Assembly (NCBI GenBank): GCA_947561395.2
Contig: OX387187.1
Coordinates: 31,973,829-32,037,828 of the forward strand
Reading direction: 5' to 3'
Origin: Buxus sempervirens
Taxonomy: Eukaryota; Streptophyta; Magnoliopsida; Buxales; Buxaceae
Length of the DNA stretch: 64,000 nucleotides
Each line of letters opens with the position of its first letter. Position 1 is the stretch's first letter. Below the pieces are notes generated by a model, which was given only the letters and a program-made list of their open reading frames with translations, had not been told where the DNA came from and did no database searches. Shown here piece by piece: positions 3,335 through 44,921 of the stretch. Made by a program: the position numbers and the translations under genes.

Positions 3335-3339
3335 TCTCA

Positions 3340-3835: not shown

Positions 3836-3839
3836 CACA

Positions 3840-4140
3840 ACAAATCTAACACTACCTCAGCCAACGTAAAACACTAAACCTAAAATACAGAACCAAGCCA
3901 ACCTAAAAGACTAAACCTAACACTACCTCTAATGGCCACACAACAAATCTAACTAGCTATAATATGATCATTTCCTTCAATGAAGTACAACTACAACTCC
4001 CAACATGCATACCATCGAAACGCACCTTGCCTAGACTGAATGATTGCCCAAAATTATGACAGTTTGGTTCTGCGTCTACCACAGGTTTGAGCCCAAGGTT
4101 GTATTTTGGTTGGATGCAGGTGGAAGCTAATGTAGCCCAA
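3840..4140 (+). repeat. Dispersed repeat, copy 1
   Basis: The segment from TGGCCACACAACAA through TTGCCCAAAATTATGACAG to GTTTGAGCCCAAGGTTG recurs at 53925-54067 and 54790-54870. There it is split by a TIR element, so this copy acts as the empty-site reference. The family is not identified. Confidence 0.65.
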
Positions 4141-4429
4141 AAAACTTAGTCTAGCGCAAAATTTAGTTTAGGTTGAAAAATATTTAATAAATAAGATGAA
4201 CTTGAAAGCCAAAAGATTCACAATGCTTTAATAAAAGAAATTTAATGTAAGTAGATTTTTGCTAAAATAGTGGGTTGTTTTATAACAAAGAATTTTTCTC
4301 CTTTTTATTTTTCAGATTTTCTATTGAAATTTTTGTATTGAAATTTTTATATTAAAATTTTATATTAGTGATCTCTATTCATAAACGTTGTAGTTAAGTT
4401 CCACTAATATCTACTTTTTTTGGTAGTGA

Positions 4430-4616
4430 ATGTCCATGAGCACACATGATGAGATTTGGTATATGTGTCAAGCTTTCTCCATCATGAAATGTAAGAAAAA
4501 ACTTGCTCGAGCGAAATCTGAGGCCCTTTCAAGTTTCGAATATTTCATTGAAAATATTAGAACATTAACTTTTCATACTAAAGATAAATCTGAAGTAGTT
4601 CTTATCACAAATGATA
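4430..4616 (+). repeat. Repeat shared with 7425-7550
   Basis: The stretch with TTGCTCGAGCGAAATCTGAGG (one base longer than quoted motifs elsewhere) and the following AATATTTCATTGAAAAT is clearly related to 7435-7540. Both belong to the duplicated DNA downstream of the NLR gene. The Helitron 4617-5514 is inserted directly after this copy. Confidence 0.5.
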
Positions 4617-5514
4617 CTAGCAATGTGGCCCGTGCATTGCACGGGCAGTAGGTTTGAAAAAACCATAATCAGTTGCAAATTAAAAAATTTAAAAGCAAGA
4701 ATCTGTAGACAAATAAAGAATGAGATTTCATAATGTATGGCCACAGCCGTTCACATTCATGTGCCGATCCTCCGAGGTTTTGTGAGGGATGGCGATTTGG
4801 GTTTTCAAAGAATCAGGTTGAGCAACCGAAACCGAAGGGGTTGATGGGAGAGAGAAGATGAGAGTGGGAGGAAAGAGAGGGGGAAGGGGAGGGGGTCGAT
4901 TTGGTTCTAGGCTTTTCAATGGGAGAGAGAAGAGAGAGGGAGGGAAGGGGAGGGTGAACAAGACTGAGGGACCGTTAGAAGAAGGCAGAGAGGGACGATT
5001 CAGAAAGGTTGTTGAACCCCCTCGATAGTAGAGAGACTGTCTGATAGAGAGAAAAGGTGGAGAGGGACAGTTCAGGAGGGTTCTCGAACCCCATCGTCAA
5101 TAGCTTCTTCGGGAGAGCGGAGCTTTTTTTTATTATTATTAAATGAATAAATCTAAATTACTTTAAATCTGAAAGTTAGGAGTAAAGAATTGTTTTTGCT
5201 TATACCTGATTTGGAATTATTATAAAAATTAAATAACTAAATCTAAATTACTTTTGAAAACCAAAGAAGAAAAGTCAAAAGTTGCAGCAGGTTTTTTTTA
5301 TTATTATTAAATGACTAAATCTAAATTACTTTAAAACTGAAACCAGAAGGAGTAAAGAATTGTTTTTGTTTATTTGAAATTATTATAAAAATTAAGTGAC
5401 TAAATCTAAATTACTTTTAAAAACCGAAAAAAAAAACGGTCAAAAGTTGCGACAAGTTCGTAGTCTGAACCTGCCACGTAAGCAGCCACCCCTGCTTCGC
5501 TTAATATATATAGA
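4617..5514 (-). mobile_element. Non-autonomous Helitron, complete ends
   Basis: On the minus strand the element starts with TCTATATATATTAAGCG directly after an A (5515). It ends with a near-perfect hairpin GCCCGTGCAATGCACGGGC, a 7-nt spacer and CTAG, followed by T. These are the 5'-TC, 3' hairpin plus CTRR and A/T insertion site of Helitrons. No Rep/helicase is encoded in its 898 bp. It holds an AT-rich direct duplication of about 155 bp (about 5125-5270 and 5285-5430). A minus-strand open frame at 4728-4961 is Pro/Leu-rich low-complexity sequence and is not taken as a gene. Confidence 0.85.
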
Positions 5515-5949
5515 TGTGAATCTGTTGTAAACAGTGGTTCATATTTTGGGTCCAAGAGGGAGGAACTTGAAGGGCCTTGTTGGTGGAGCGTAGCGAAGCC
5601 CACAGGGAGATGTCCCTCCCATGTGTTGTGAAACGAGTTGGACGTGTGGAAAATAATGGGGTTGAGGAGTGCGGGGGGCTTGGTATGGTAAAGTGTATTT
5701 TTGGGATTTAAAAAATGTTGGGATATACATTGATGTAACCCTGATTGACATTTTTTCATAGTAGAAATTTTTTTGTACATAGTGAACGTAGACACATTCC
5801 CAAACCACTTAAAATTTCTGTGTTCCTGTTCTTCTTCTTTCTATTTGTTTTTTTTTTTTTTTTTTTTGTACTGTTCATATTGCAAGATTCTCAACATAAT
5901 CAACTAGAAATCAATTAATCACATCAATTTGTTGGTGCTACTAATAAGA
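5515..5949. other. Intergenic, no gene seen
   Basis: Flank of the Helitron. It includes a T-run near 5850 but no coding signature or recognised repeat. Confidence 0.5.
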
Positions 5950-6270
5950 CCTACAAACAACACCAAACAGATGGCGCTACCTAGTAACAAAACTTGCAGC
6001 CGTTCACAAGTATGTATATGTTAGCTTATAGAATTTGCATTAAATTATGAAACTCACACAACACTAGTAGCTTCAGCCATCTCTTTTGCAAGCTTTTCAG
6101 GGTTGCTTGAGATGCTGACTCTTGCCCCTCATTTGGACCAAAAACTTAAAACGGTTTTGCTTTATCTCCTTTCTTTACATCCTGTGACAATTCAAAGCAT
6201 AAGGAATGAAAATTTTTCATCTTATAAGAAAGGGAAAGAGAGAGAAACCTAATTAGATGATATCATTGAA
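5950..6270 (-). pseudogene. NLR 3'-tail relic T1
   Basis: First of three degenerate copies of the sequence lying downstream of a CNL stop codon. On the minus strand it shows a GTTTCTCTCTC donor-like start, a TTGTCACAG acceptor with exon start at 6181, then a conserved stretch containing TTTTTGGTCCAAATGAGG and GCATCTCAAGCAACCCTGAA. The intact CNL has an equivalent acceptor with exon start at 9753. No long frame is kept. Confidence 0.6.
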
Positions 6271-6339
6271 TAATTTAAAGTGAAGGGTCAAGTATCTTTT
6301 GAAGGAATGTATTTCCAAAAACCCACTGCAGGTGATCCA

Positions 6340-6560
6340 CCTTAAAGTGGATAGTTGGTGATGTATGCCAATGATATTACATAAGGCCTAAAGGGAAGCA
6401 AGATGTTGAATTACATCTGCAGCAGGGTGGAAGTCTAATTCTTTAGGGAAGAAGCCACTTTTGTAAATCCGCAAGAGCTTTGGGCACTCACAACTTGTGG
6501 GGAAATGACATCAATTTCTTGCAACCATGAGCATCTTTAAAATACAAAACAAAGGCTGGT
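6340..6560 (-). pseudogene. LRR fragment of a CNL, relic a
   Basis: About 6380-6520 aligns with 10270-10415 of the intact CNL: shared GGGAAGCAAG.TGTTG, TCTAATTCTTTAGGGAAG (against the CNL's TCCAACTCCTCAGAGAAG) and a CTTGTGGGGAAATGACATC-like LRR segment. It is an eroded piece of the LRR coding region in the same orientation as the gene. Confidence 0.6.
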
Positions 6561-6589
6561 ACAGTCAACGTGATTTGAAAGATAAATAA

Positions 6590-6845
6590 CATAATCATCT
6601 GGATTTTTTTTTCCTTGGAAGTGAATTATATATCATAGAGAACTCCAATGGAAGTGAATTATTGAATAAAACACGTGTATCATAGCTATCATGTATGGTA
6701 TTACATTGATCAGTATCTATTATATCTAGTTGTAGAAGATAGAGCAAGTAAGAAGATCTTCTATAATTGGCCTCACATTGATCAGTAAGAAGGTTAACTT
6801 TATCTAGTCGTAGAAGATAGAGCAAGTAAGAAGGTTAAGTTTGCG
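6590..6845. repeat. Local short tandem duplication
   Basis: The segment TAGAAGATAGAGCAAGTAAG occurs at about 6733-6752 and again at about 6812-6831, with ATTGATCAGTA also repeated before each. It is a local duplication inside the NLR relic region. Confidence 0.6.
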
Positions 6846-6909
6846 GGATGCTACCATATATATGTTTACCCCCAGACCCAAAATTACAGGCCCTTAAGCC
6901 TCTTGTTTT

Positions 6910-7190
6910 GCTACCTTAACAGCAAACAACACCAAACAGATATGGAAGTAGCTAGTAAACATACATTTCAAATATTCACTAGCCTATGTTAGCTTACAGA
7001 ACTTGCAGTAAATTATGAAACTCTCACAATATTAGTAGCTTTGGATATCCCTTGTGCACGATTTTCAGTGTTGCTTGAGATGGTGGTTTTTCTCCTCATT
7101 TGGACCAAAAACTGAACATTTGCTTTTGCTTTATCTTCTTCATATCCTGTGGCAATTCAAATCATAATGAATGAAAATTCCCCATCTTAG
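6910..7190 (-). pseudogene. NLR 3'-tail relic T2
   Basis: Second copy of the tail module, with an acceptor-like site and exon start at 7146 on the minus strand. One frame stays open into FLVQMRRKTTISSNTEN. This resembles the corresponding LMSKKTTVSTN frame downstream of the intact CNL, supporting common descent. Confidence 0.6.
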
Positions 7191-7424
7191 ATGGCCACAT
7201 GAATAGGACCATAAGACCACACAACTCCATCCACAGACTTAGATGGCCACACATTTTTTGCCCATACACAATCTAAGAAGTTTGTTATATCCCAATCGTA
7301 ACAACCATGATCACCTTTAAAATACAAAATAAATACTGGTACAATCAATGTGATTTGAAAGATATAACATGATAATCTGGATTTCGTTTGCATTGGAAGT
7401 GAATTATCACAAAGAGATCCTAGA

Positions 7425-7550
7425 TTTTAGAAATGACGCTTTTTCCATGATGGAACTCAAGAAAAAATTTGCTCAAGCGAAATCTGAGGCATTTCAAGTT
7501 TCCAATATTTCATGGAAAATAACAGAGTTAATTTTCATATGAACAACAAA
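7425..7550. repeat. Repeat shared with 4430-4616
   Basis: Contains GCGAAATCTGAGGCATTTCA and flanks related to 4470-4580. It is part of the duplicated DNA in this cluster. Confidence 0.45.
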
Positions 7551-7719
7551 TAGAAATGAAATTTTTGCCTATTCGATCCTTTTTAGAACAAGATTATATA
7601 ATTTCTGCTTGGTTTTAGTAGCAGTAGTTATCACACACGATATGTAAATCAACTATATAACAATTACTCCCATCAATACATGTTATTGGAGGTTTCTAAT
7701 CTCTTCTATCTTAAAGTTA

Positions 7720-7794
7720 ACAGAAAACAACACCAAACAGATAGATCGCTACCTAGTAATATAAATTACAACAATTCACAAGTATATATCTATA

Positions 7795-7830
<36 letters not shown>

Positions 7831-9900: not shown

Positions 9901-12900
9901 TCATTGAAGACTTTTGATGTCATCGTTGATGTATTTTTTTCTATGCTCATCGTATCTCCAAAATTGCAATTGTGGAATGTGGGCCACCTTGTACCACTCC
10001 TCTCCTCTCTCATTCTTACATCTCTCCTTTAGATGGGGACAATCAGTAATATAAAGCGTACGTAGTGCAGTGAGGCGTCTAATCTCTTCCAACGATGGCA
10101 GGTACATTAGATTATGACAACTCTCAATGTCTAGTGTTTGAAGTGCTGAAAGTTTTCCCAACCACTCCGGCAAAGCCATCATTCCATGAATGTTGTAAAT
10201 CCCTAGCGTTCGTAGCATAGAGAGGTGCTGAAGCTCCCTCGGCAAAGTCATCAGTTTAGACCAACCAAAGATGCTTAAGGTACGGAGGGAAGCAAGGTGT
10301 TGGATAAAATCTATGGCAGGAAAAGAATCCAACTCCTCAGAGAAGGGGCCAATTGTTAACTCTTTAAGAGTAGTAATGCCTTGCAACCCTTGGGGCAAAG
10401 AAATCAAATTACTGAAACCACCAATTGATAATATTCGAAGAGATTGCAAGTCCCACAGATCAGGCAAAGACATTAGAGCAGGGCAATCCCTTATGACCAA
10501 TTCATCCAAAGATATAGGGAGTCCTTGTTTGTGTACACCCTGGTTTTCACTTGGCAAAATAGCTTCAAGTTTGGGGCACTCTGTAATCTTTAGTTTCTGA
10601 AGATTTATGTTTTGCATCAATTCCTTTGGCAGGGAGGTAAGCTCTGGAGATTCGCTTATCTCAAGGGAGGTGAGAGAGTTCAACTCACTCATTGAACTTA
10701 ATACCATATTGTTGCTTCCTTGAAAAGTAAAATCTTGGAGAGAAGGAAATTGAGTTTGAATGGTCTTCAGTTTAGGGCAGCCAGATATACACAATTCTTT
10801 GAGGCAACGGAAAGCCCGGAACACTTCTATCCATTCTACCAATTTAGGCATCTCCCATAGTTCAAGTTTTTCTAGTGAAGGGAACATTTCATGTTCCGTT
10901 TCCATATCACTAGAACACCTCCCATCATAAAACTTGCTACCAAAATATTCAACAGCATGCATTCCTCGTAGGAGAAGAATCTTAAGATGGGGCAGCTTAC
11001 CAAGCATTGGAAGTTCCTGACATCGCATGCAATTCCACAAAGTAACCTCTACCAAATTATCAAGTAATGACACATCCATCATCCATTTTGGAAAGTTAAC
11101 ACCATTATTTTCATAAATACTTAAACCTTTCAAATATTGATGGGGTTCAAGGCCCTCCATGACATCTTCATCATTCCTCATACCATCATCATTATAATCA
11201 TCACCTTCAGTTATTGCCCACGAAAGCCTCAAACGGGTCATTTTTGGCTTCCCCCTTAGATTTGCCCGTTTTGCTTCATTTCCACTTTTGACATTCCAAA
11301 GGTTAAATATACTCAATTCATCTCTGAGCAGCAAGTGTTCCAACTCTTCGATACGGTATCCACTCTCATTGCCTACAAAAAAATAAGGAAGCAATTGAAG
11401 GGAGTTCAGTTGCCCAATTTGGGATGGCGTTTGAGTCAAACGTCCAGGATCATTCATTACAAGATATGTCAAGTTAACTAACTTCCTCATTTCTTTAGGA
11501 AGTCTTTCAAGGTAGTAGCACTCATTGAGTCTTAATGTTTGCAAGTAGTAGAGATTGGTAATAGACTCAGGTAATGCTTTGATGCCATTCGATGAGAGGT
11601 CAAGATACCTTAGATGTTTCAACATATCGATTGACGAAGACAACTCGAGTACCCCACCATACGACAAATCCAAAACTCTCAAATACTTGAAGTTGAAAAA
11701 GATACTATCAATAGCTCGAGCAGATACTTGTGGTCCATTAAATGCCCAAAAAAAGCTTCGTACCTTCTTTGCCTTGTGATAGGCTTCTGGAATTGGTTCC
11801 GTGGGGTCATATGGAATTGACAAATGAAGCAATCTAGAAACGTCTTTTATGTTTGTATTAGCCTCGTAATGTAAGAATTCTGGTCTTGCAAGAAACCGTG
11901 CAAGATCTACCACAAGATCATGCATATCACACGTACACATCACCGTTACTCCATTATCGCTCTCTTGTACATTCTGGAAAAAGCAATTTAATATCAAATA
12001 GCAGAAATACTCATCCCCAATATCATCCTTCAGTTGATTTTCCTTAGTTATTTGAAGCAATCCTTGGGCATTCCATAGTTGAATGAGCATATTCTTTTCA
12101 ATAGTTTCGCCTTTGTCAAAGAGGGAACAATATGCAAAGCATTGCTTTATTGGTGATGGCAAGTGATCATAACTCAATTTGAGTGCAGGTAAAATTCCAC
12201 TTCGATCTTCATTTAGGTTCCAAATTTCACTATTTAAAACACCCAACCAGTCGTGTATTTCTCTTTTTAAGAACATCAGGCCTCCAATACTCTTTGAGGC
12301 TAGTGGCACGCCTCCACACTTTTTTACAATCTCCCTTCCAATTTCAACCAAATCAGGAGTCTCCTTTGGCCCTCCAATCCGAAAAGCTCTTCTCTTAAAC
12401 AAAGACCAGCTATCTTCTTCTGACAATATCTCCAAACGGTATAGTGGAAGTGTACCCATGATTGCTCCAACTTTATCACTACGAGTGGTCACAACAATTT
12501 TGCTTCCACTTGCACCGAATCCCAACGGCATCTTCAAATCTTCCCACTGTTCACAATCCTCATTCCAGACATCGTCCAGTACAAGGAAAAAGCGCTTCCC
12601 ACTGAGTTTTTCTCGAATGCTCTGTGCTATCAAATCTCTGCTTTCTATCTGACTTTCACTTTTAGTAATAGATTCGGAGACTTTGCTTAAAATTTGCGTG
12701 ACATCAAAATTCTGAGAGACATAAACCCAGATTCTAATATCAAAATATCTCATCACCAAGTCATCATTGTAGACCAATTGAGCGAGTGTGGTCTTACCAA
12801 GGCCGCCAAGGCCAACAATGGGGAGGACTGATAGAGGCTCTTCATGGCCAGAACTAATTAACATATCAACGATCTTCAACTTATCAGCATTTCTTCCAAA

Positions 12901-13410
12901 AATTTCGGAGTCATTCACTAAAGATATGGTTTCTCTACTCACTCTGGTTTGCATGGGAAGAGATCGATCCACATATCCAACTCGGAGTTGGAAGCCAGAT
13001 GCATTCTCCTTGATTTGCTTTAGCAATTCATTGATGTTCTTAATCTTATGAGCCATCTGAAAATGAAATAAAATCGGATTTGAGGGTGAGAAGAAGAGGC
13101 ATACCATTTTCATGAGGTCGTTTCGGATTTCCAGTTTGTATCGCATGTCTTCATATGCGATCTCGTCCAGTATGTTATCGATGTCATACGCCAACTCCTT
13201 GAGACCTCTTAGCCAAAGTCTCACAGCCTCCTCCTCAATCTGCCTCTTCTCAGCATCTTGTAGTTGAGCTTGAATGAAGGTTAGCGTGCTTTGGAGCTTT
13301 TTCAGCTCTCCCTTGACACAGCACGCCCCACCAATCTCTTGGATAATGATGGGGTTCAACTTCTTCAGTATTTCTGTAATCCCACCAGCAATCAGTGATT
13401 CAACAGCCAT
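9901..13410 (-). CDS. CC-NBS-LRR (CNL) disease resistance protein
   Basis: An uninterrupted 1169-residue coiled-coil NLR of the RGA type, an intracellular immune receptor that senses pathogen effectors. Domains in order: Rx-type coiled coil about 1-130 with an EDVID-like motif AYDIDNILDE at 74-83; NB-ARC about 165-500 with P-loop GLGGLGKTT at 200-208, kinase-2 FFLVLDDVW at 274-282, RNBS-B GSKIVVTTRS at 302-311, GGVPLA at 366-371, RNBS-D CFAYC at 424-428 and MHD at 496-498; then LRRs about 565-1130 (for example LRYLDLSSNGIKALP). The C terminus PHLKERCKNERGEEW is usual for this group. All key ATP-binding motifs are present. The start gives the family's normal MAxE..I..L beginning. A CT run lies in the 5' leader. 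Eroded copies of its 3' end lie downstream (5.9-9.4 kb), suggesting a shrinking NLR cluster. It could still be poorly expressed; sequence alone cannot tell. Confidence 0.95.
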   Translation of the reverse strand: MAVESLIAGGITEILKKLNPIIIQEIGGACCVKGELKKLQSTLTFIQAQLQDAEKRQIEEEAVRLWLRGLKELAYDIDNILDEIAYEDMRYKLEIRNDLMKMVCLFFSPSNPILFHFQMAHKIKNINELLKQIKENASGFQLRVGYVDRSLPMQTRVSRETISLVNDSEIFGRNADKLKIVDMLISSGHEEPLSVLPIVGLGGLGKTTLAQLVYNDDLVMRYFDIRIWVYVSQNFDVTQILSKVSESITKSESQIESRDLIAQSIREKLSGKRFFLVLDDVWNEDCEQWEDLKMPLGFGASGSKIVVTTRSDKVGAIMGTLPLYRLEILSEEDSWSLFKRRAFRIGGPKETPDLVEIGREIVKKCGGVPLASKSIGGLMFLKREIHDWLGVLNSEIWNLNEDRSGILPALKLSYDHLPSPIKQCFAYCSLFDKGETIEKNMLIQLWNAQGLLQITKENQLKDDIGDEYFCYLILNCFFQNVQESDNGVTVMCTCDMHDLVVDLARFLARPEFLHYEANTNIKDVSRLLHLSIPYDPTEPIPEAYHKAKKVRSFFWAFNGPQVSARAIDSIFFNFKYLRVLDLSYGGVLELSSSIDMLKHLRYLDLSSNGIKALPESITNLYYLQTLRLNECYYLERLPKEMRKLVNLTYLVMNDPGRLTQTPSQIGQLNSLQLLPYFFVGNESGYRIEELEHLLLRDELSIFNLWNVKSGNEAKRANLRGKPKMTRLRLSWAITEGDDYNDDGMRNDEDVMEGLEPHQYLKGLSIYENNGVNFPKWMMDVSLLDNLVEVTLWNCMRCQELPMLGKLPHLKILLLRGMHAVEYFGSKFYDGRCSSDMETEHEMFPSLEKLELWEMPKLVEWIEVFRAFRCLKELCISGCPKLKTIQTQFPSLQDFTFQGSNNMVLSSMSELNSLTSLEISESPELTSLPKELMQNINLQKLKITECPKLEAILPSENQGVHKQGLPISLDELVIRDCPALMSLPDLWDLQSLRILSIGGFSNLISLPQGLQGITTLKELTIGPFSEELDSFPAIDFIQHLASLRTLSIFGWSKLMTLPRELQHLSMLRTLGIYNIHGMMALPEWLGKLSALQTLDIESCHNLMYLPSLEEIRRLTALRTLYITDCPHLKERCKNERGEEWYKVAHIPQLQFWRYDEHRKKYINDDIKSLQ

Positions 13411-13436
13411 TGTTTCTCAAGCAAATCAGGCAAAAC

Positions 13437-25930: not shown

Positions 25931-26211
25931 AACAATTCAAAAGTTCAAATTTCAAAATCCTCTGGATCTTAGCTGATCAGTAACCTGCCATGTTGAGAAT
26001 CAGAACAACTTCATTTCAAGTCAACAGCAATTCTAATTTGCTAATCTTTCTCCTTATTTTTCTATAACTTGTTATAGCTGTTACCTTATAAAGCTCTGTT
26101 TTCTGTTTTGACAAACTTCCTTTGTATATGCAAATGCTTATAAATACAATCTAATACCCACGATTATGAGTGTGGTGAGATTTCACATCCATCTATCTCT
26201 CTTTTTCTACT
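25931..26211 (+). repeat. 5' LTR of the Copia element
   Basis: It matches 31277-31555 at about 95 percent by eye and ends directly before the primer binding site. A TATA-like CTTATAAATACAA lies near 26138. The outer border is approximate, because the two LTRs differ at their first bases. Confidence 0.85.
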
Positions 26212-29200
26212 TGGTATCAGAGACATAAGATTGCCCTTTCTTTAAGAACCATGTCTTCCGCATCTCTAAATGTTGGCAATTTTGTCACACTACTTTTGAA
26301 AGCAGAAAACTATCCTCTCTGGCGTGAGCAGGTCCTAGCCCTTGCAGAAAGTCAAGAATTGGTAGGATATCTCACTGGTGATGTTTCACCTCCAACTCCT
26401 GTATTTCCAGGACCTGATGGAGCAACCAATACTTCTACTCCAAATCCAGAATACCAGAAATGGAAAACTGCTTATTGTCTTCTCAGAGGGTGGATCATTG
26501 GAACACTCTCTGAAGAAGCCCTTGGCATTGTTATTGGCCTTGACACATCTGTTCAGGTGTGGTCTTCACTCAAAGATTCTTATGCTCAGAACTCTCAAAA
26601 ACGACAGTTCCAACTCAATCAACAACTCATCTACCTGAAAAAAGATGATGAAACTCCTCTTAATGATTACATTCAGAAGTTTAAAGGTATTTGTGACAAT
26701 TTGGCTGCCATTGGCTATCCAGTAAGTGATAAAACTAAGGTTTTTTCATTGATCACTGGTCTTGGTGCTCGATATGAACCTTTTAGTACTTCAACACTCA
26801 GACCTCCTATGCCTTTTTATGCTAAAGTCATTCCTTTACTGCGAAGTTATGAAACTCATGTGACCCTGCACTCTCCAACTCAAGGTGTTTACTCTGCCTT
26901 CTTTGGGTAGCAAATAACAACACAAAGCAAGGCAACAGAGGTCCTCGAAATTCAGGTAATTTTTCTTCTGAAGGAAAGGGGTTTGTTCCTACTAATCAAT
27001 CTCAAGTCAAACTGAACAGTCAAGGTTCTGCTCCTACTGCACCTAACAATTCCCGTGAAAACACTCGTGATATTGTTTGTCAAATCTGTGGCAAACGAGG
27101 TCATAATGTTCTTTGCTGTTGGCATAGATTTAATCTTGCTATTCAACCTAACAACATACCACAAGCCTTTGCAGCTCATCAATTTGCTCTAGATGCCAAT
27201 ATTGAGGAATGGACACCAGACAGAGGGGCTTCAGCTCACATGATTCTCATGAAGGCATTTTGCACAATCTTCGCCCTTATAATGGTACTGATCATGTTAT
27301 TGTCGGTAATGGGGATTTTCTGCATATAACTCATATTGGTGATTTTACCATTGGTTCTGGTTCTGCTAAAATTGTCCTATCTGATTTACTTCTGGTTCCA
27401 GATTTAGAAAGGAATTTACTATCTATTGGGCAACTTACATCTGATTATCTCGTAAACTGTGAGTTTTCTAATCAAGATTTTGTTATAAAGGACCGAATCA
27501 CCCAAGTGGTTCTGATGACGGGAATCAAACAGGGTAATTTGTACTCTATTCGGACAGTACCAGCTGCCTTCTTCTCAACCAGATTTCGAACTGTTACTGA
27601 AGAATTATGGCATGAAAGGCTCAGTCATCCCCAAGAAGCAATGGTATCTCATCTTCATAGTTCTGGTCTAATAAAAGTGGTGTCCAATAAGGCAGCAACA
27701 TCAATGTGCAAGAGCTGCCCTTTAGGGAAAATGTCTAAGTTGCCTTTTATGTTGTCTACTTCTAAAAGTAATGCTCCTTTTGATAAGTTGCATATTGATT
27801 TATGGGGACCATCTCCAACCATCTCTGTTCATCATTTTCGATATTATGCAGACATTATTGATAATTTTACCAAGTTTATATGGATGATTCCTTTAAAACA
27901 GAAATAAGATTTTCTTTGGTCAGTACTTATTGTTTGAAAAGTACATTCATCGTCAATATGGGAAATCTGTTAAAATCATACAATCTGATGCTGGTGGAGA
28001 GTTTCTTAATCAAAATTTCGTAAATCATATGCAACAGTCAGGTATTCTTCATCAGATTTCTTGCCCCTACACACTTGAACAAAATGGGATGGTAGAACGC
28101 CGACATCAAGTAATAAGAGAGCTTGGACTTACAATGATGATACATGCAAATAATCCTATGAAATTCTGGGTTGAAGCCTTCACAACTTCTGTCTTTTTGA
28201 TTAACAGAACTCCCTCAGCAACTCTCCAATGGCAGTTACCATTTTATCTGCTTCGTAACAAATACCCAGACTATGGCTCCCTAAGGGTTCTGGGTTCACG
28301 TTGCTATCCATACACATGGGACACAAAAACCAACAAGTTTGATACAAAATCCCTTCCATGTGTATTCTTGGGTTACAGTGATAGGCACAAGGGGGGTATT
28401 GCTGCTACTATCCTCCCACCCCGAAAACAATCATATCTCGGCATGTCTTATTTGATGAAGCAACACTACCTTCTAAAGAACCAGCTCCATCCCAACGTGC
28501 TACTCTTGAGCCAACTGTCACAACTTTCAAAGAATGGTTTACTTCAAATTCCGAATCAGCACCTAGACCATTAGTTTCAATGAAGTCCACTCAATCTTCA
28601 AATGAACCTCCACCGACTGATGCTTCCTTGGCAAAAACAATAACCATATCTGATTTACTCACTCCTACCTCAAGTTCTTGTCATCATGATTGTGATTCTA
28701 CTTTGGGTACCCCACTTGTTGACCGAACAGAAGTTAATGCTTCTGAACATGAGAATGTGAATTCATTATCTGCACCTCTGGCTTGAACGTCCTCTTCTCA
28801 ATCATCTTTGCCTCATCATCATATGATAACTCATGCTAAATCCGGAATTCGAAAATCCAATCCTCGCTATGCTCTGTTTCATGACTACAGTCCAATTCCA
28901 AAAGAACCCCGTAATGTAAGAGTTGCTCTCAAACATCCTGGTTGGACAAAAGCTATGGAAGAAGAGCTTACTGCCTTGTCTCAAAATATGACATGGACTC
29001 TTGTTCCTCGAGACCAGTCAATGAATGTAGTTGGTTCACGGTGGGTGTTCAAAACTAAACTCAATGCAGATGGATCCTTACAACGGCTTAAAATACGTTT
29101 GGTAGCAAAGGGATATCATCAACTTGAAGGAATAGATTTTTCTGAAACATTCTCACCACTTGTTAAACCAGGAACCATCCGATTGGTTATCTCCATTGCT

Positions 29201-29252
29201 GCTGTTTGAAAATGGAGTATCCCCCAATTGGATGTAAAGAATGCGTTTCTTC

Positions 29253-30148
29253 TGTTAAGGAATATATTAAATATATAAAGTTCACCCCTTACTATCAGCT
29301 TAAGCTTTTAGTAGGAACGGTGTTCAACATGGTATCAGAGCCTTAGGCAAACGCCAGGTCCTGGGTTCAAACCTCCATTCCACCCGTTGAGAAAAAAAAT
29401 ATTCCACGTGTAGGGCCTCCCCAAAAATGGGTTTGAGTCCGGCCCACACGTGAGGGGGAGTGTTAAGGAATATATCAAATACATAAAGTTCACCTCTACT
29501 ATCAGCTTAAGCTTTTAGTAAGAATGGTGTTCAACATGGTATCAGAGCCTAACCCATGTCCACGCTGTTCTGTCAGCGTGAGGGGGGCTGTTGGAATTTG
29601 TCCCACATTGGGAATTCACCATTCTTTCATCCACCATATAAGAGATGGATTTCCCTCACCTTAATGCCTAGGTTTTAAGCTTGAGGCCCCTCCTCTTATG
29701 TGTTGTTGGGCTTTCAACATGGTATCAAAGCCTTAGGCAAACGCCAGGTCCTGGGTTCAAACCTTCACTCCACCCGTTGAGAAAAAATATTCCACATGTA
29801 GGGCCTCCCTAAAATGGGTTTGAGTCCGGCCCACACGTGAGGGGGAGTGTTAAGGAATATATTAAATATATAAAGGTCACCCCTTACTATCAGCTTAAGC
29901 TTTTAGTAGGAACGGTGTTCTACATGGTATCAGAGCTTTAGGCAAACGCCAAGTCTTGGGTTCAAACCTCCATTCCACCCTTTGAGAAAAAAAAAATATT
30001 CCACGTGTTGAGCCTCCCTAAAATGGGTCCCCTAAAAATGGGTTTGAGTTTGGCCAACACGTGAGGGGGAGTGTTAAGGAATATATTAAATATATAAAGT
30101 TCACCCCTTACTATCAGCTTAAGCTTTTAGTAGGAATGGTGTTCAACA
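29253..30148 (+). mobile_element. Tandem TRIM array inserted in the Copia element
   Basis: The array has five short LTRs: A1 29253-29329, A2 29461-29536, B 29589-29719, A3 29848-29924, A4 30072-30148. Each is followed (except the last) by TGGTATCARAGC, a tRNA-Met primer site. A purine tract (GTGAGGGGGAG or GTGAGGGGGGC) precedes every LTR but the first. A LTRs start TGTTAAGG and end in ACA; the B LTR starts TGTTGGAATTTG and ends TTTCAACA. TCTTC at 29248-29252 and 30149-30153 is a 5-bp target duplication around the whole array, so it was inserted as one unit. TRIMs encode nothing and depend on other elements. A1 and A4 differ by one base by my reading, so it is young. Confidence 0.9.
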
Positions 30149-31276
30149 TCTTCATGGTGTTTTAACTGAACTAGTTTTCATGAAACAACTTCCGGGCTTC
30201 CAAAGTTCGACACATCCTAACCATGTTTGCATGTTTCATAAAGCAATTTATGGACTAAAACAAGCTCCCGGAGCTTGGTTTGATTGTTTTAGTTCATTCT
30301 TACTTGCATCTGGATTTTTCTGCAGCTCAGCTGATTCTAGTCTTTGTATTCTCTATTCAGCAGCATGTACACTAGTTCTACTGCGATATGTGGATGAAAT
30401 AATTCTCACAGGTTCATCTGATGCTCTTCTCAATGAGTTTGTTGCAACTTTAAGTTCAGAATTTGCAATGGAAGACCTCGGTTTGCTTCATTATTTTATG
30501 GGAATTCAAGTGTCACATGTTGCTGATGGTATTTTGCTTCATCAGTCTAAGTATGCTATTGATTTGTTAGAACGAGATTCCATGCATGAATCCAAGCCAA
30601 TATCTACTCCTTTGTCTCAGAAATTCAAATCAGATCAAGATTCCACTCTTTACAAAGACCCGCAGCATTATCGGTACTTAATTAGTTGGAGCATTGCAAT
30701 ATTTAACTCTAACAAGACCCGACATTTCTTTTAGTGTCAATTATGTTTCACAATTTATGCAAGCTCCCACTAACAGTCACTTCACAATGTTACGGAGAAT
30801 TTTGAGATATGTCAAAGGCACTTTCAACTTGGGTCTTCACATTCAGGCATCTAGTACACTTGAATTATATGCTTTCTCGGATGCGGACTGGGCAGGTTGC
30901 CCTTTAACTAGAAGATCAACTACAGGTTTTTGTACCTATCTTGGGAGTAATCTTATCTCTTGGTGTGAAAAGAAACAACTATATGTTTCTAGGTCCAGCT
31001 CCGAGGCCAAATACCGAGCAATGGTTTAAACTGCAGCTGAATTAACTTGGTTGTCATTTCTACTTCGTGATCTTCACGTCTCCTTGTCTAATGCTCCAGT
31101 TCTTTTTTGTGACAATTTGAGCTCACTTTTTATGATAGTCAATCCAGTGTTTCATGCCCACAAATTGCTGATATATTTACGAAGCCTCAAACTTGAGTTG
31201 ATTTGGAATGACTTAGACACAAATTGTGCCTTACACCCATGCACAGTTTGACAGGGGATATAACAATTCAAGTTTC

Positions 31277-36430: not shown

Positions 36431-37507
36431 ATCAATCTGATTCGATATGATTTAGTTTTGGCCCATAAACCACTAGGCTTTGTTAATTGCGGGCTTTCAT
36501 TTTGTCCCATGTTGTAATTGTTCACAATGATCATTCTAAATCATATATACGAAGGAGCATTGACTTGGGTAACAGCAACAGGCAATGAGATAAGAAAGAT
36601 CCAAATACCCAAGAAAAGGATCATTAGTGTATACTACTTGCAGAAAATATGGTTTTGGTTGACCAAATTAGAGGTAGTAAATGAAAAGTGAAAGTTATGG
36701 AGGAATACCTTGGAATAGGGTTTTAAATGGAATGTCACTTCATCACATATAATAATAAAGGTGAAGCAACGGTAAGACTTGAGAATTGACATTCCAAAAA
36801 AATTTTTTTTTTGGGTAGTGATTTGACATTCCAAAAAGCAATCAACTTAGTTATATTGGATCAATTATTCAAAAAACAGAGAGACTAATGTGGATTTTGC
36901 ACATAGAATTAGTGTTAAATTGCCTAAGTGGAGACTTGAGAGGCACTACTGGAATATTATGTAATTGATGTGTTCCAATTAAAGGTAAATTTTAAAAGAT
37001 AGCTATTGGGTTTGGTATGTTATATAAATCATAGTATTTTGCAACAAAGTAGCAACATACACATCACATCAAGACCAATGGAATTAGGTTTAACCCAAAT
37101 TTTAATTTACTAGTAGGATCATGGGCTTTGCCACTAAAGACCAATGTATTTACCCAGTTTTAATTGATTAGTAGGATCTTGGGGTTAACTGCTAAGACTA
37201 ATGAAACATTGGGTTAGTAGGATCTTGTAATTGTTCACAAGGATCATGGATTTGGCCATTAAGACCAGTGGGCCTTGGTTTAGCCTATGTTGGAATTGAC
37301 CATTAGGATCATAGACTTTACCATTAAGGCTAATTAACTTGGCTTAGCTGATGTTGTAATTGACTACTATGATCATGGACATGATAATTGAGAACAAACT
37401 TGGGTTAGTTTGTAATTGACCGTGAGGATCACGGCTGAACTTGATCTAAACTTTTGGTTGGGTTTTGCTACTCATTTGTAAGAGTTATGGAGGCCTTAAA
37501 TTGTTCA
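36431..37507. other. Intergenic with degenerate GGATCATGG repeats
   Basis: From 37070 to 37440 short degenerate units of the kind TAATTGACYAYTAGGATCATGGAYTT..CCATTAAGRCYAATG recur about six times with variable spacing. They are non-coding and the origin is unknown. Confidence 0.4.
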
Positions 37508-38159
37508 CGACACTACAAAAAAGTAGGGCTACAGCGGCGGAGGTTAATGCACTTTTAGCAGCGGTCTTTTTATAGACCGCCGCTAAAAGTCAAATATTCA
37601 ATATTTCAAATATGCCCTAACCAGTCCGATTTTTCCCCCACCCAGTCTCCCTGCAAAAGCCTCTTGCGAGTCTCTTCTCCAATCTACTCGATTTTTCCCC
37701 TAACCAGTCTCCTGTGAAGTCATCTTCTCCAGTCCGCTCGATTTTTCCTATCTGCCCTTCAATGCTCCAACACTTCGAAAAGCCCTTATCATCAAAGAGA
37801 AAATTTCTCTTTTTAAAAACCTATCTGCCCTAATCCTCATCTGGCTCGACTGTGTCCTAATCCTAATCGGCTTCCTTCACCTCATCCAAACTCCGAGATG
37901 ATGCGATCTCGTATGGATTCAGTTGACTGAGGATTTATTGTTTTTAGGCTGTGGGTCAAAACTTGCGAGCGCATGATACGGTGTGGTCGGGATATATTAC
38001 AAAGGGCACGGACCATCTGACGGCATTAGATGTTACATTCAAAAGTTTGATGATAGCAGCGCGACGTTGATCGCCATGCTCAGACATTAGATGGAATTGC
38101 AGCTTGATCTTGCATCTCCTTTCTAGTTGATATCATCCTCAAATCGGTTGGTGCCCTAG

Positions 38160-38240
38160 TCTGAAATTTTCGTTATTTAAGAGATTTTTTATTTCGTTAT
38201 TTAAGAGCTTTTCGTTATTTAAGAGCTTTTTGATTTCAGT
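38160..38240 (+). repeat. Short tandem repeat in the CACTA element
   Basis: TTCGTTATTTAAGAG occurs three times in about 70 bp (near 38168, 38193 and 38211). Confidence 0.75.
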
Positions 38241-38649
38241 TTCGATTCATATGGAGCTTGCTATTATTCTCATTTCCCCTTTTGGATCTGTTTTTCCTTG
38301 CATTTGCTTTGAATCGATGATCTTACAGTCTTCGATCATGTATTTTTCCCCAAATTATACAACCAAATATTTTATGCATCCCAGTAGGTTGCAAGGGTAT
38401 TTTAATTTGTCCTTCTGGTGATCGAAGCAGGGGAGGATCTTGGTTTCATGCTTTTCCGTTAAACAGGAGATGTTGCCTCGTTAAAGAGTGATTTTTGACA
38501 CTAGGTTGACCTCTTACTTGTACTGCTTTGTTATGGTTTCACATGTAAAATTTCTCAGATTACTCTAGTGCTTTTCAGGTTGAGAGAAATCAACATGGTT
38601 AAGTGATATGTAACTGCCTTATTTTTCCAAAAATTATTTGTTTTTTCAG

Positions 38650-40196
38650 AAGAAAGTAATGGTGTTAAATTTATTGATAAAAGATGCAGTATTATGCAAC
38701 AATCCATTTGTGACATTGGAGTGCCGGTAAGCTCTTGAACTTGTAGTATTTGTTGGAATTCTGAAGTACATAAAATCTGTACACATGCACACACACAGTT
38801 TGCTAGTTAGAGCACACAAAGAAGTCAAGATGGAAGTCCCCCATCCTTTACCCTAGCATGGGGTTCATCCTTATCATTTTAGTACACACAAGATATGTTT
38901 TGAGTCCACTCTTCTTATTCTTCTTTTTAGTTACCATTTGGTTGTATTGCTTAATGGATATGTATAAATACTCAAACATTGAAAGGACAATGACAAGTAT
39001 GCTTAAAAATGTTGGGGAAATATTCTAGCCAGCAATTTCAATTTATCTGTCTTCCAACTGATTGAAGTGCTTATTTACTTGTTTATTTATTTAGGCTGTC
39101 ACATGATTGAAGTTGAGAGACTAGAGAATTTCTGTAAATTACTTTGGCCAAATTTGATATCATTTTTGGTAATACAGAATTCTTGAACAGCCAGAGGGGT
39201 GGATGGGTTTCAATTCACCTGATCCTTAGGGAAATAAGTATGATCCTCCAAATAACATTGAGAGAACTTTGTTTCTCTGTAATTTTGCATAAAACTTCCT
39301 TTTCCACATCCAAGCCTAAGAGGATACTTTTTCTAACCATATGACCACATGGTTGATAGGTCAGTATGTTTCTGTCTTTACACATTTTCTTGTGCACATG
39401 TGATGCAGGTTGTTCACACTGTCAGTATGTCGCTGCTTCAAGTCTCCCTTTGCTTGACAGTTATTTATTATACTCCTTGATATGCAGGGGACATTCTTTG
39501 TTACTGAGAATGAGAACATCAACATCCTTAAAATTCTTCTGCAATCAACTGGGATTCACAACACAAGTACTGTTCTACCATTCTTCAGAAAGCGAGAGAA
39601 TGATACTTTCGCCAGTTGCCAAAGCTGAATATAGGGAGGTATATTGGTAATCTATTTGCAGTTTCACTGGATATATGCTGCAAATAACATTGTAGATAGA
39701 AGCTGCAGAGTCCTGATTACTTGGTTTGGTTGAGATCTCGGATGAAGATTACATAATAGGCTTCTGGTTCTTGCTTTCCCTCATACAAGTTGATAAATAT
39801 GCAAAAAAAACTATATTTGGATTTCTGACTTTTTTTTTTTGGTGTGAGATTTATTGAAAAATAGAAGACGATATACAATGATGGATAGAATCTGTAATGA
39901 TATACTTTTTCAGAAAACGTGTTGATTGAACCTTTTAAATTTGATCTCTATTGTTTTTTGTTTTGTGATGACCCATACTTTTTCAGAAAGCATCACAAAG
40001 GGATTTGCTGCATTTCTTTATCTTCCTTTATATGTAACCTAATTTTAGTTCTTAAACTATATTAGGACTGCGTTTAATTGGAACTACTTGACCTGATGAT
40101 CATTATATTGAACAGATTAGACCCGAGTGAAGTGGGAGCTGATATTGATCAATCTTCTTTGAAGCTAGAGGCAGCGGTGGTTGCTCCTTTAAAAAG
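38650..40196 (+). pseudogene. Unidentified exon-like blocks captured by the CACTA
   Basis: Three blocks have splice-like borders. 38650-38726 (CAG before, GTAAGC after) reads SNGVKFIDKRCSIMQQSICD and then IGVP. 39488 to about 39628 (after GATATGCAG) reads GTFFVTENENINILKIL and runs to a TGA. 40116-40196 (AACAG before, GTATTT after) reads LDPSEVGADIDQSSLKLEAA and then VVAPLK. The first two join in phase. The blocks look protein-like and may come from one gene, but I cannot name it. The stop in the second block argues that the fragment is dead or that the block continues in another frame. Confidence 0.4.
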
Positions 40197-40447
40197 GTAT
40201 TTGCCAGTTAAACTCTCATGCAACCATAAATCATTGGTGATATCCTTTACTAAGTAATTATTTTGATTTGAATCCTACAATTAGATTTTGAATTATACAA
40301 TTTAATTATATTTGTGAGATTAGGAATGATATTTGTGATGCTTTAAAGCAATTCAAATTGTTTTTGTTCAGTTCCATTGAATCTGGTTTAATTCGTGAAC
40401 TGCTAATGTGTATTGAAATTCAAATTAGTGATATAAACACGTCAGTA

Positions 40448-40468
40448 CTCTCTCTCTCTCTCTCTCTC

Positions 40469-40543
<75 letters not shown>
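40448..40543 (+). repeat. (CT)n microsatellite
   Basis: About 96 bp of almost pure CT, inside the CACTA element. The Leu/Ser repeat frame across it is an artefact. Confidence 0.97.
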
Positions 40544-40546
<3 letters not shown>

Positions 40547-41472
40547 TATGCCCTGTCTCAACTCCTTGTGTTTGGATACATAATGGAAATTTTATTAGGA
40601 AAGAATTGTTTCACTGTTTGGGCATCTGCTATAGATCTGCAAACTCTGGTACGATCACATACTAATAAATCAGCAACTGATATGGACAAATAATATCAGC
40701 AACAACTTGTATTCTCAGCTCAAAGCTGTCCCACTTTGGTTTTTTTTTTCCTTTTTTGTTTCACTCTTTTTGCAAGATATCAGAAACTTTCATGTAAAAG
40801 GGAAGAAATTAGTCAAACAAGACACCATACAAAATGCAGCCAATAAAGCAACTCTACTTTTCTTGGTTCTCCCCATTACAGTATAGTAAGACTACATTGG
40901 CTTCCATCTTGCATGTGAGACAGAGAGAGAGGTGGCATGTGTGGGATATCCTGCCTTTTCATAATTGTTCACAATGAAATTCCTTTCACATGGAAATTTT
41001 ATTTAAACATATTTTTTTTTTGATAAGATACTGATATGGCATTTAGCAACCTAAAAATTGACTAAAAAAACAGATGGATTATATGAGCCAATGCAAGAGA
41101 ACAACTTGGAAAAAGGTGAAATCAAATGTAGGCAAGTAGGTAAGGTGGGGCCTGCAAGTAGAATAGTGGACAAGAAAATTCCAAAGTGAACAAAAGAACA
41201 AATCAGTCTCAAGGTAGAAGGAGATGGAGGAAGCAATAATAAAGTATAAAGTATGAAGCTGCAAGCTTGCAGCAACTATATAATAGTATTCCTTGCAGGT
41301 CAGCAACTATGTGTAAATTAAGGTATTTGAATTGAAAATTTTTAAACACAAACAAGCCTATAATTTAATATTTTTGTATAGTTAATCTCATTTATAACAT
41401 TGTTTCAATTGTGCTTTGTTCCAGATTGCAATTGGATTGAGAAAACAATAAATGCCCCTTCAGAGAGTATAC

Positions 41473-41601
41473 CTTTAATGTTAGCTCTTTGAAAGAATGC
41501 TCAACATTTTCTCGAGTTTTAGCACTACATTCAAGGTATTGACATCTGAGATCTTGTGCAAGAGCAATTCCCTCTTCTCTAGTTACAGCACTTTCATTTT
41601 C
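41473..41601 (-). pseudogene. Rab18/RABC small GTPase exon fragment in the CACTA
   Basis: A single 43-codon exon on the minus strand between an acceptor (TTTTTCAG) and a donor (AAG|GTATAC). It contains EEGIALAQ and YLECSAKTRENVEHSFKEL, the guanine-binding G5 region (SAK) and the following helix of RABC/Rab18 proteins, which control membrane traffic. The P-loop, switches and C-terminal prenylation signal are absent. It lies antisense to the cyclase exon 0.5 kb away, so the two came from different genes. The frame is intact and can at most be an exon trap. Confidence 0.85.
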
Positions 41602-42144
41602 CTGAAAAATATTTTATCATTAAATTGAGTATCTCACCTTTTCTAAGTAAACTGAATACTATTTTAAAACAGAGTATGACCTGTGTTTGGTGCTGTGTCA
41701 TTTGTGTCATGAGATCTATGATCTATCTCTGTTGATTTTGTTTTTTCTGATTCTTCTATGTTAGATGGCCTGGTCATGTTATATGAATGTCCAGGGAAGG
41801 TATGAGGAATTAACCAAAAAAAGGGAAGGTATGAGGGAATGTATGTTGAAGGAATAAAATAAGATATGGTGGTAACTGTGTTTATTTCCCATTAATGGAA
41901 ATTTTGCCATTTGATGCTTGTGTAGGAATTCATAAGAACACAACAATGAGAAGTTGTAGTGTTCATACCAAATCAGTACCTGCTGATCCTTTTGACAAAT
42001 ATATCATTGGTTTGTAAGTCTTTTATCAGGAAACAAACATCAGTGCTTCTCTTTTCATATGGTGCTCGTTGTTTTAAATAGCAAGTCGATTTTCTACAAG
42101 TTCTTCAGGAATTTTATTTGACTTGTGTTCTTTTATAATAACAG

Positions 42145-42229
42145 GTTCTTGGAGCTTTTGAATGGTCCAGAAATAACCCATTGCCGCCGGAGATATGGAT
42201 AATTCCTTATATTCTCCCATTCCATCCAG
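42145..42229 (+). pseudogene. Oxidosqualene cyclase exon fragment in the CACTA
   Basis: An 85-nt exon (28 codons plus one base) between ATAACAG and GTATAA, reading [18 protein letters not shown] and [10 protein letters not shown]. It matches the highly conserved VLGVFEWSGNNPLPPE.WLLPYFLP.HPG exon of cycloartenol and beta-amyrin synthases, enzymes that cyclise 2,3-oxidosqualene to sterol or triterpene skeletons. The exon borders fall where I recall them in plant cyclase genes. The catalytic DCTAE exon and all others are missing. The original genomic intron flanks were probably captured too (about 41985-42300). Confidence 0.88.
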
Positions 42230-42973
42230 GTATAAACCTCATGATACTTTCATTCTGTATCTATACAAAGTAGAAATTTTGATGGTAAAATAACAGACAT
42301 GTTTTGACTTTCGCAATCATACTATTGAAATCATACTTGTGTAGATGAATTTGAAGGTTTGGAGATGACTATTTTTGCAGTGGAGCTTGAAGGTTTGGAG
42401 ATAGATTTTGAAGCATCAAATCATGGTTGTCAGCAAAATTTTTTTTTTTTTTCTGATAAGGTTTGTAGATGAATTTTGAACCATCAAATGTCATGAAACA
42501 GGTTCTTTTTTTTTTTTTTTTTTTTGTGTCTTGGTACTAATATTGTAATGGAAAGTGTAAGTCTCAAATTAATGTTCTTTTTCAAATTGCAAATTAATTT
42601 TTTTTATTTTTATTTGGCTTAATCATGTAATTTAGGTGCTTGCAGATAAGAGAGAAAGAAAAAGATGGGGGTTCGGTGTGTGTGTGGGGGGTGGGGTTGG
42701 GTACGGGTTGGGGGTTGGGTTGGGCGGTTTGTTTGGGGGGCGTTGTTGGGGTGGGGCGCGGTTGTAATTAAAAGAAAAATGTGAGGTGGGTAATAGAAAT
42801 TTTGTTTGGGTGGGGTGCGGTTGTAATTAAAAGAAAAACATGGGTTGATTTGGGCCAAAAAAATAAAACAAAAAATCAGCGACGGACGAATCATCGGCGG
42901 ACAGGCGTCGTTCGGTAGGACATTTAGCGGCGGTCTTGGTCCGCCGCTAAAGGTCAATTTTTTTGTAGTGCGA

Positions 42974-44921
42974 GCTTGCAATGGAGTGTGCTTTCTGCTT
43001 TGTTGTTATTTAATCGTTATCCATATCGTGGCTTGTACAAACCTCAGTGAGGTCTGGACTATCAATCTTGGTAATATCAAATTTTAGGCAGTAAGGTCTT
43101 TAGCTTCTTGGGACAGACATAGGAGCATGTCTTGGCTATGTATTTGCAAATGCAATTATGATATTGAAACTAGAAAATAACCTACATGGAACATCCAAGT
43201 CCTATGACTGGCATAGAAGCTGGTTAAGCTTATTGACTACAGATATCAAGTTATCATCATATAACAATGGGATGCTGAAACATTGTTAATTTTTCGTAGC
43301 AGCCTAAGATGAAGATACGGACCTGTTTATGCAAGTGGCTGTATCACAAAACATCCGTTTCTTATCGGATTCTGAATTGTTACGAGCAAACTCTATGAAA
43401 TATTTGTAAAAGAATATAAATGTGCATATACATATATTTAGTTTCCCCTGGTGGGAGAAAAGATTAAGGAGATCTGGTGAGGATAAAATTCAAGACAATG
43501 AGATAAAAGAGAATGGCCGATGGCATATGCGTAATGCTGCTTCTTCCTTTTCTTTCTCAATCTTTTCCAAAATCTCTCTTTTAATTTTTTGTGCTTAAAT
43601 TAGGGTATTAGCTCTCTCCACTTGCTCAATGGGGAAACATCCTTTTGTAAAATATGATCTTCTCTCTTTACTTAAAACAGAAAAAAAAGAAAACAAAGAA
43701 AAGGAGTAAACATATGGGACAGAGTTGGAAAGAGAGAAAACAAGAAAGGAAACCAGAGGAGAAAGGGAGGAGGAAGGGAAGTAGGAGAAAGGGAGGAGAT
43801 ATTCTCTGTGAGATTCTATTCTTTGCTCACACCTCTTCTATTTGCTTTCAGACTCTTGTTTTGGTCATTCCATTGTCATTGGCATGCTTTACTTATAACC
43901 AATTTTAGGGAGTTACACAACTACGACTCTATTTGTGCAATGGATGTGGGGACTGGAAGTTTTAGTTACTTCCCGACCAACTCTATCAAGATATCTGTCC
44001 CCCTCAATTAGTTTGTGCCAAGCATCAAATAATGGCTTATTAGCACTACACTTCGTGGACTATGCTCATGCAAAATCTCTACTTGAATGCTTTCCTTTAA
44101 TTTATAAGTTTAAATGAATGCAAGTGTCTTAATCATAACACAGAACATGGTTACAATAAGTTTTCAAGTCATAAAACCATATGGCTGCATATATTGTATT
44201 TTTCTTTCTTTTTATTTTATAATATTAAGAAAAACATATTTTCCATCTGGTGATCAAGAGCTGTTCATGCTAAAACATTACAGTTATGTTAGTTCATAAT
44301 TGCTCCCCAATGGAGATGATTTGCCTCATATAATACCTCTCTTCTGGATTTTGAATCTTGTCATAGTATTCTTTAATTATTGCATTTTGTGCTCCTTAAG
44401 CCTATCTATTTTCTGATCCAAAGCTTTATTTTGATGGTGAGAACTTGCATGGCACTATACCCTTTGCCAATGATGAACCAATTGGTGTTTCTACGGTTCT
44501 ACCCCTATTTTCCATGGTACTAATGATTATACTCTTATTGACCCAAAAATTGGGAACCATTTTCATCACCTGAAGCATCAATGTATTCTGCTATTTGTTC
44601 ATTGTGCTCCTCTAGATTACCACCTTTAATTTTTTTTTTTGGGCTGTTTAAAAGAATTAGGCTGATCAGAATTAGTAAGTAGCAAGGATGTTGCCGTTGG
44701 ACTGGTGGATACCACCTTACCTGGACTAATGTCTCAGCTTACGTTGTATCTCCTATTTTTTCTATTTATTAGTCTTGATATTAGCCCATTCTGTCTGTGC
44801 TACTTCAATTTGAGCAAATGATTATTCACTTGTTTCAAACTTGAAAGAAATCTTATGCACCCCCAATTGATGGGATTTGTGATTTGTTGTTTGTGTTAGT
44901 TGACCCTTCTCCATCATGCAG
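42974..44921. other. Intergenic, no firm gene
   Basis: AT-rich sequence without recognised repeat ends. A GGGAGGA/AAGGAAA purine tract lies at 43715-43800. Scattered short open stretches have no family resemblance. Confidence 0.4.

Follow-up and report, generated by a model that had tools for sequence, protein, structure and literature searches.

A transposase-less CACTA element of Buxus sempervirens with a patchwork of host DNA that includes oxidosqualene cyclase and Rab-like exons

Background

How cut-and-paste transposons gain pieces of host genes is still argued, and a 64,000-nucleotide stretch of the Buxus sempervirens genome (assembly GCA_947561395.2, contig OX387187.1), here called the window and corresponding to C9:31973829-32037828, raises this question in a particularly direct form. 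A CACTA transposon in the window holds an exon of an oxidosqualene cyclase (OSC) gene and, on the opposite strand, an exon of a Rab-like gene, so where did these exons come from, in what order were they captured and by which route? A sequence-only reading of the window had proposed the element and both exons, and had treated their pairing as special. Comparison with the rest of the genome indicates that the element is a Pack-CACTA, a known kind very like soybean Tgm-Express1, and an unusually readable example of it. The genome searched comprises 676.5 Mb and only the best candidates of each search were scored; hence, copy numbers are lower bounds.

A complete element that moved with its cargo

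The element opens with CACTACAAAAAA at 37511 and its 3' terminus reads TTTTTTTGTAGTG, ending at 42970, with a terminal inverted repeat beginning CACTA at both ends (CACTACAAAAAA each) and a CGA target-site duplication on either side (Table 1). In an exact-motif search of the element, the subterminal motifs GCGGCGG and CCGCCGC and their variants occur near the two ends only, at 37534 and 37577 on the 5' side and at 42927 and 42941 on the 3' side. None of the 12 stop-to-stop frames of at least 74 aa (longest 133 aa) matches a Pfam family above the cut-off, and two of them have sub-threshold matches to unrelated families; the scan for transposase covered frames of this length and, among shorter ones, exon-like frames only. 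The ends, the duplication, the subterminal repeats and the lack of a transposase described by the sequence-only reading are all borne out. No Rfam family reached threshold within 37300-43200.

The element transposed as a unit together with its cargo, because there is a paralogous empty site as well as a full-length sibling with a target-site duplication of its own. At the empty site (C9:31804102-31804516, L079) the joined flanks align without the insert over query bases 1-407 of 407 at 96% identity, and the 181 bases read there have one triplet at the insertion point, TGA, as against CGA twice in the window. The insertion region is itself duplicated: the flanks 37311-37510 and 42974-43179 recur without the element at a distance of about 207 kb, likewise on C9. 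The sibling (C4:7820044-7825585; L037:545-6086) is 97.2% identical over 37511-42875 (5,394 columns), while its last 100 bp align worse (82% over 122 columns) and include additional bases. It is flanked by AGA/AGA, and this difference from CGA speaks against the two copies being segmental duplicates. A global alignment, in which 142 columns are gaps, gives a Kimura two-parameter (K2P) distance of 0.017 across 5,430 sites; if plant DNA changes at about 7e-9 substitutions per site per year, the two copies would have parted roughly one million years ago. Other copies share the termini, as the first 250 bp have at least 45 genome matches, the window's own included and some overlapping each other (40 of 175 candidates scored).

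Sources of the captured exons and of the remaining cargo

The OSC exon matches a terpene cyclase/mutase chain in the PDB (E 3.4e-5) and is 97.6% identical to an exon of an OSC gene in the same genome; alone it falls below the Pfam cut-off (E 0.08), as does the donor's copy (E 0.059). The best match outside the element family is at C11:2183999-2184281 (L059), where further preceding OSC exons lie in frame, one matching SQHop_cyclase_N (E 7.6e-15), and two other frames have no Pfam match. Judged by sequence similarity, this OSC gene is the likely donor of the OSC patch (K2P 0.033). The patch is collinear with its parent but broken into three steps, 21, 31 and about 288 bp long (positions 1069-1089, 1198-1228 and 1520-1806 on the reverse complement of L059). 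Between the steps 108 bp and about 290 bp of parent DNA are skipped, and the second gap takes in the preceding exon of the parent gene. Two other candidate donors, at C22:15.06 and C8:31.18, were rejected as element-borne relatives, since both carry CACTA 3' ends. An OSC cluster lies near the donor: the C-terminal OSC family has at least nine matches, seven at C11:1.08-2.16 Mb and two on C8 (20 candidates scored).

A PDB search with the Rab-like exon, which we take to be of Rab18 (RABC) type, returns Ras-family chains with R-Ras2 first. The surrounding patch is 97% identical over 219 bp, intron included, to C3:52626955-52627173 (K2P 0.028), and a second frame at that locus also matches Ras (E 6.6e-8), which makes a Rab gene on C3 the likely donor. 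Both exons are open, have splice sites at their borders and lie in opposite orientations, in agreement with the sequence-only reading. Because introns are retained in the OSC and Rab patches, the cargo was captured at the DNA level, and a retrocopy origin is ruled out. With the best donors on C11 and C3 rather than beside the element, the exons do not derive from flanking genes; that they belong to intact genes at this locus or are an annotation artefact is contradicted by the empty paralogous site, the donors on other contigs and the sibling copy, and can safely be set aside.

Piecewise genome searches trace the cargo as a whole to eleven loci on seven contigs at 85-97% identity. We infer that each matched place is the native donor because it gives the only match outside the element family or the best one there, although it may itself copy the true donor. 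Beyond the OSC and Rab exons the cargo consists of short patches, mostly without recognisable coding content. The unidentified blocks that had been read as exon-like are captured DNA from at least nine other loci; three frames of exon-like appearance were compared with Pfam, and none matched. The pairing of OSC and Rab is less special than it had seemed, as the cargo comprises about a dozen patches and nine elements carry both the OSC and the Rab patch.

Table 1. Coordinates of the element, its target-site duplications and its patches in the window
Feature	Position	Strand	Source or evidence
Target-site duplication, left copy (CGA)	37508..37510	.	Single triplet TGA at paralogous empty site
Complete non-autonomous CACTA element	37511..42970	+	5,460 bp; ends, target-site duplication, C4 sibling
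Module A: 5' terminal inverted repeat, subterminal palindromes, 5' leader	37511..38441	+	Common to other CACTA copies
Patch B (1.23 kb)	38442..39671	+	3' side of DUF2921 gene; 97%/95% identity
Dispersed repeat (43 bp)	39671..39713	+	14 genome matches, 13 at 92-100% and one at 81%
Patch D	39713..39976	+	Best place outside elements C9:4.607 Mb, 95.5%
Local duplicate (15 bp) of 39902-39916 at D/E junction	39975..39989	+	
Patch E/F	39997..40245	+	Shared with C9:18.72 and C11:8.62 loci, both matching from 39997
Patch G, including CT microsatellite	40246..40683	+	C9:27.500 Mb; three pieces, 93%, 100%, 95.6%
Patch H, two pieces	40682..40967	+	C1:54.694 Mb (91%, 93%)
Patch I	41029..41305	+	C21:3.083 Mb (96%)
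Patch J	41307..41401	+	C3:52.290 Mb (94%); part resembles several places, 77-86%
Rab patch, intron-exon-intron	41441..41659	-	Likely source C3:52.627 Mb, 97%
Rab-like exon, 129 nt, open, AG/GT borders	41473..41601	-	Pfam Ras, E 1.8e-8
Patch K	41739..41859	+	C1:46.151 Mb (85%)
Patch L	41872..41938	+	C15:18.973 Mb (93%)
Patch M	41936..42016	+	C19:6.109 Mb (90%)
OSC patch, three collinear steps	42021..42352	+	Likely source C11:2.184 Mb, 95.5%
OSC exon, 85 nt, open, AG/GT borders	42145..42229	+	28 whole codons; PDB match
3' subterminal region and 3' terminal inverted repeat	42353..42970	+	Shared with relatives
Target-site duplication, right copy (CGA)	42971..42973	.	Sequence read

Several patches call for comment. 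The right border of module A is set by the matches of two loci (L039 and L043), both of which end at 38441. The source of patch B is present twice on C21, 40 kb apart (6.857 and 6.897 Mb), and a DUF2921 open reading frame adjoins it in L023. Patch B was considered as a third gene with exons at 38655-38732 and 39488-39625 and rejected for want of a Pfam match; it is treated as non-coding, lying about 95 bp beyond the presumed end of the DUF2921 gene in the donor, as placed by a putative last-exon chain. L043 (C8:8580600-8590599, reverse complement 106-7828) is a 7.7-kb element of another CACTA subfamily with ends GTGATATAGCGACACT and target-site duplication TTA/TTA. It holds part of module A (37648-38441) together with patch D; therefore, cargo is common to different CACTA subfamilies. 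The E/F frame has no Pfam match, and the C9 donor of patch G was rejected as a source for E/F too, since its match ends at 40246. An exon-like stretch within E/F (40059-40228, LDPSEVGADIDQSSLKLEAAVVAPLKR) is found nearly whole in eight further places at 95-99% identity, at least one of which (L029) has sequence resembling the 3' end of this element. No native donor was assigned to E/F, and no source was matched for 39977-39996 (partly the local duplicate), 40968-41028, 41402-41440, 41660-41738 and 41860-41871.

Nested relatives and the order of capture

The search with the OSC stretch gave 29 matches, five of them partial; the 24 that span the whole exon are 23 element copies, the window's included, and the native gene. 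Nine of these 24 (window included) extend 5' as in the window, 12 start at a shared point, 42021, and two, on C22 and C8, differ in their borders and lie close to a CACTA 3' end, the last being the native gene. The Rab stretch has 12 matches, namely nine elements, one donor and two diverged paralogues (79% and 71%), and the nine Rab-bearing elements are the same nine whose OSC match extends 5' as in the window. Seven of them contain the whole Rab exon, while those at C1:63.07 and C1:10.77 match only from 41507, in mid-exon. Coverage of the remaining cargo is graded as well: the copy at C11:37.59 covers 40920-42970, that at C11:8.62 covers 39997-42927 with gaps, and the entire cargo is found in the window and C4 copies only (two, a lower bound, with the 5' parts of the relatives on C11, C3, C1 and C10 lying outside the comparison).

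The 12 copies that carry OSC DNA only are informative on polarity. Three of them hold 122, 275 and 274 bp of a stretch of OSC DNA that reaches to parent position 1089. Among the nine Rab-bearing elements, seven show 21 bp of this stretch, and no match to it is reported in the C4 and C11:8.62 copies (the window was searched with a laxer E-value); the extra DNA of the three OSC-only copies on the 5' side thus amounts to 101-253 bp. For the copies read, this shows that OSC-only copies are not deletion products of Rab-bearing elements, and that the Rab patch and its neighbours were added later than OSC, because OSC-only copies retain OSC intron that Rab-bearing ones lack. A CACTA 3' end is present in two of the three OSC-only copies examined and is not seen in the examined stretch of C12:19.07, and five of the 12 OSC-only places have a match to the 5' end 3-7 kb upstream in the same orientation, in the search with the first 250 bp. 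Distances of patches to their sources range from K2P 0.023 (J) to 0.106 (M), G being measured over 40543-40683 only, and do not by themselves track the proposed order of capture.

How the patchwork arose

Taken as a whole, it is highly probable that this is a Pack-CACTA, a CACTA element without transposase and with a patchwork cargo; template-switching repair would account for its small patches, and fusion may account for the larger joins. Small patches, from 67 bp to a few hundred bp, would have entered when breaks within the element were repaired with errors and the template was switched at short microhomologies. The 5' module and the larger patches may have been joined via fusion of neighbouring elements. 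The element is presumably mobilised in trans, with tnp2 transposases supplied by its own genome, in which tnp2 has at least 150 matches (150 of 520 candidates scored).

Six junctions have an assigned source on either side, and they overlap by 2, 3, 0 (with one extra nucleotide), 3, 2 and 3 bp. This sum of 13 compares with 4.5 expected for random joins (P 0.005), and without the two steps inside the OSC patch the sum is 8 versus 3.0 expected (P 0.03). Because of these short overlaps, the stepwise copying of OSC and the lack of exact end motifs inside the element, template-switching repair is favoured for the small patches, and we consider it somewhat probable. The fuller scenario, in which short patches were added successively 5' of the older OSC patch, in an order legible from nested relatives and through repeated template switching instead of the published fusion mechanism, is more tentative and would have less than an even chance of being correct.

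Fusion of neighbouring CACTA insertions would have two nearby elements mobilised as one with the DNA between them, repeated rounds producing a patchwork. This is the published model for Pack-CACTAs, with comparative support in maize and rice (PMC8903248). The window element does unite a 5' module that also occurs in L038 and L039 with a 3' half that occurs in a different set of elements (C11:8.62, C11:37.59), and conserved ends with rarer DNA inside fit fusion. However, some patches measure only 67-95 bp and come from unlinked loci, neighbouring patches overlap by 0-3 bp at the junctions that could be read, and exact end motifs are absent between patches, so that fusion would demand many rounds in which the inner ends were lost. 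The stepwise copying of the OSC parent also speaks against it. Fusion as the main route is therefore rather unlikely.

It should be emphasized that several observations weigh against template switching and serial capture. The six junctions are those that could be read, a small sample and not a blind one; the unsourced stretches of 12-79 bp, and patch E/F without an assigned donor, restrict how many can be read at all. Only exact transposon-end motifs were sought in the interior, where none was found. The steps in the OSC patch could also be two ordinary microhomology deletions, and a 5' end like that of L038 and L039 joined to the 3' half present in C11:8.62 fits element fusion as well. Other local 15-mer repeats occur in the element, so the duplicate at the D/E junction is not special and counts for little. 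At one site of the OSC exon the window, C4, C19, C10:27.64 and C22 copies have R and the donor and nine others have G, a distribution that crosses the groups and is not predicted by a simple nested tree. As to the putative mobilisation by tnp2, a related 5' end in L039 precedes a tnp2 fragment, but the two are separated by a second CACTA end.

Coding state of the captured exons

Could the cargo be under selection, with its exons spliced into transcripts, or regulate its parents through antisense Rab or OSC small RNAs that silence the parent genes? The AG/GT borders of the OSC exon are intact in all 15 sequences compared (13 relatives, the donor and the window) and its frame is open in 13, and splicing of captured exons has a precedent in Tgm-Express1 (PMC1947982). 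Nevertheless, two copies contain a stop, five of the 15 sequences, the window's among them, have the R for G change, and among the nine element-borne Rab exons the GT donor is gone from three and another two are truncated; moreover, young copies would keep such sites without selection. Selection or regulation thus appears very improbable. Until shown otherwise, the exons would best be regarded as passengers, and any transcripts or small RNAs that they yield as incidental. With the two exons in opposite orientation, a chimera of OSC and Rab in sense is unlikely.

Relation to known elements

CACTA inverted repeats, a 3-bp target-site duplication and subterminal repeats at both ends place the element in the CACTA superfamily, and the absence of a transposase match, host gene fragments with donors, a second copy with the same cargo and retained introns are Pack-CACTA features. 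It shares captured gene pieces inside a non-autonomous DNA transposon with Pack-MULEs, which have Mutator-type ends and target-site duplications of 8-11 bp; the CACTA ends and the 3-bp duplication rule out that assignment.

The closest likeness is to soybean Tgm-Express1, also a CACTA element, near-equal in size (5.7 versus 5.46 kb), with exon and intron pieces of five unrelated genes; it sits within an intron of flavanone 3-hydroxylase, and its exons are spliced into chimeric transcripts (PMC1947982). In contrast, the Buxus element is known from DNA alone, more and shorter patches are resolved in it, and its relatives yield an order of capture. Pack-CACTAs of Arabidopsis, rice and maize have CACTA ends, no transposase and host DNA, sometimes from several loci, so that multi-locus cargo is known already, maize Pack-CACTAs holding the most; fusion was proposed for these, whereas the small patches described here look more like template-switching repair (PMC8903248). 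CACTA-like elements of Chenopodium hold short host-gene fragments in their 5' region, for example 80 bp of AP2, but these lie upstream of a retained transposase domain, and fragments of one gene are named per element (PMC8978399). Maize Ds-l4 elements likewise have an interior of filler DNA, in a few cases genic, for which break-repair errors are mentioned as a suggested cause of capture, but they belong to the hAT superfamily, with an 8-bp target-site duplication and a modal length of about 1 kb (PMC3260210). In the accessible parts of the literature searched the element itself was not found, and a search for CACTA elements with oxidosqualene cyclase returned nothing relevant in its listing and abstract openings. 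Novelty is limited to this particular set of captured pieces and to the readable sequence in which they were gained.

Other features of the window

Elsewhere in the window, a CC-NB-LRR disease-resistance frame of 1,171 aa with Rx_N, NB-ARC and LRR domains lies at 9904-13416 (-), and the remains of a Ty1/copia retrotransposon, with gag and RVT_2 frames, at 26179-31029 (+).

Conclusions

Because a single genome supplies the likely donors together with the empty site, the sibling and intermediate elements, the order of capture and some of the junctions become legible, and the element permits a test between element fusion and template-switching repair. One triterpene-synthase exon has spread to more than 20 places in the genome of B. 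sempervirens, its splice borders intact in all copies read.

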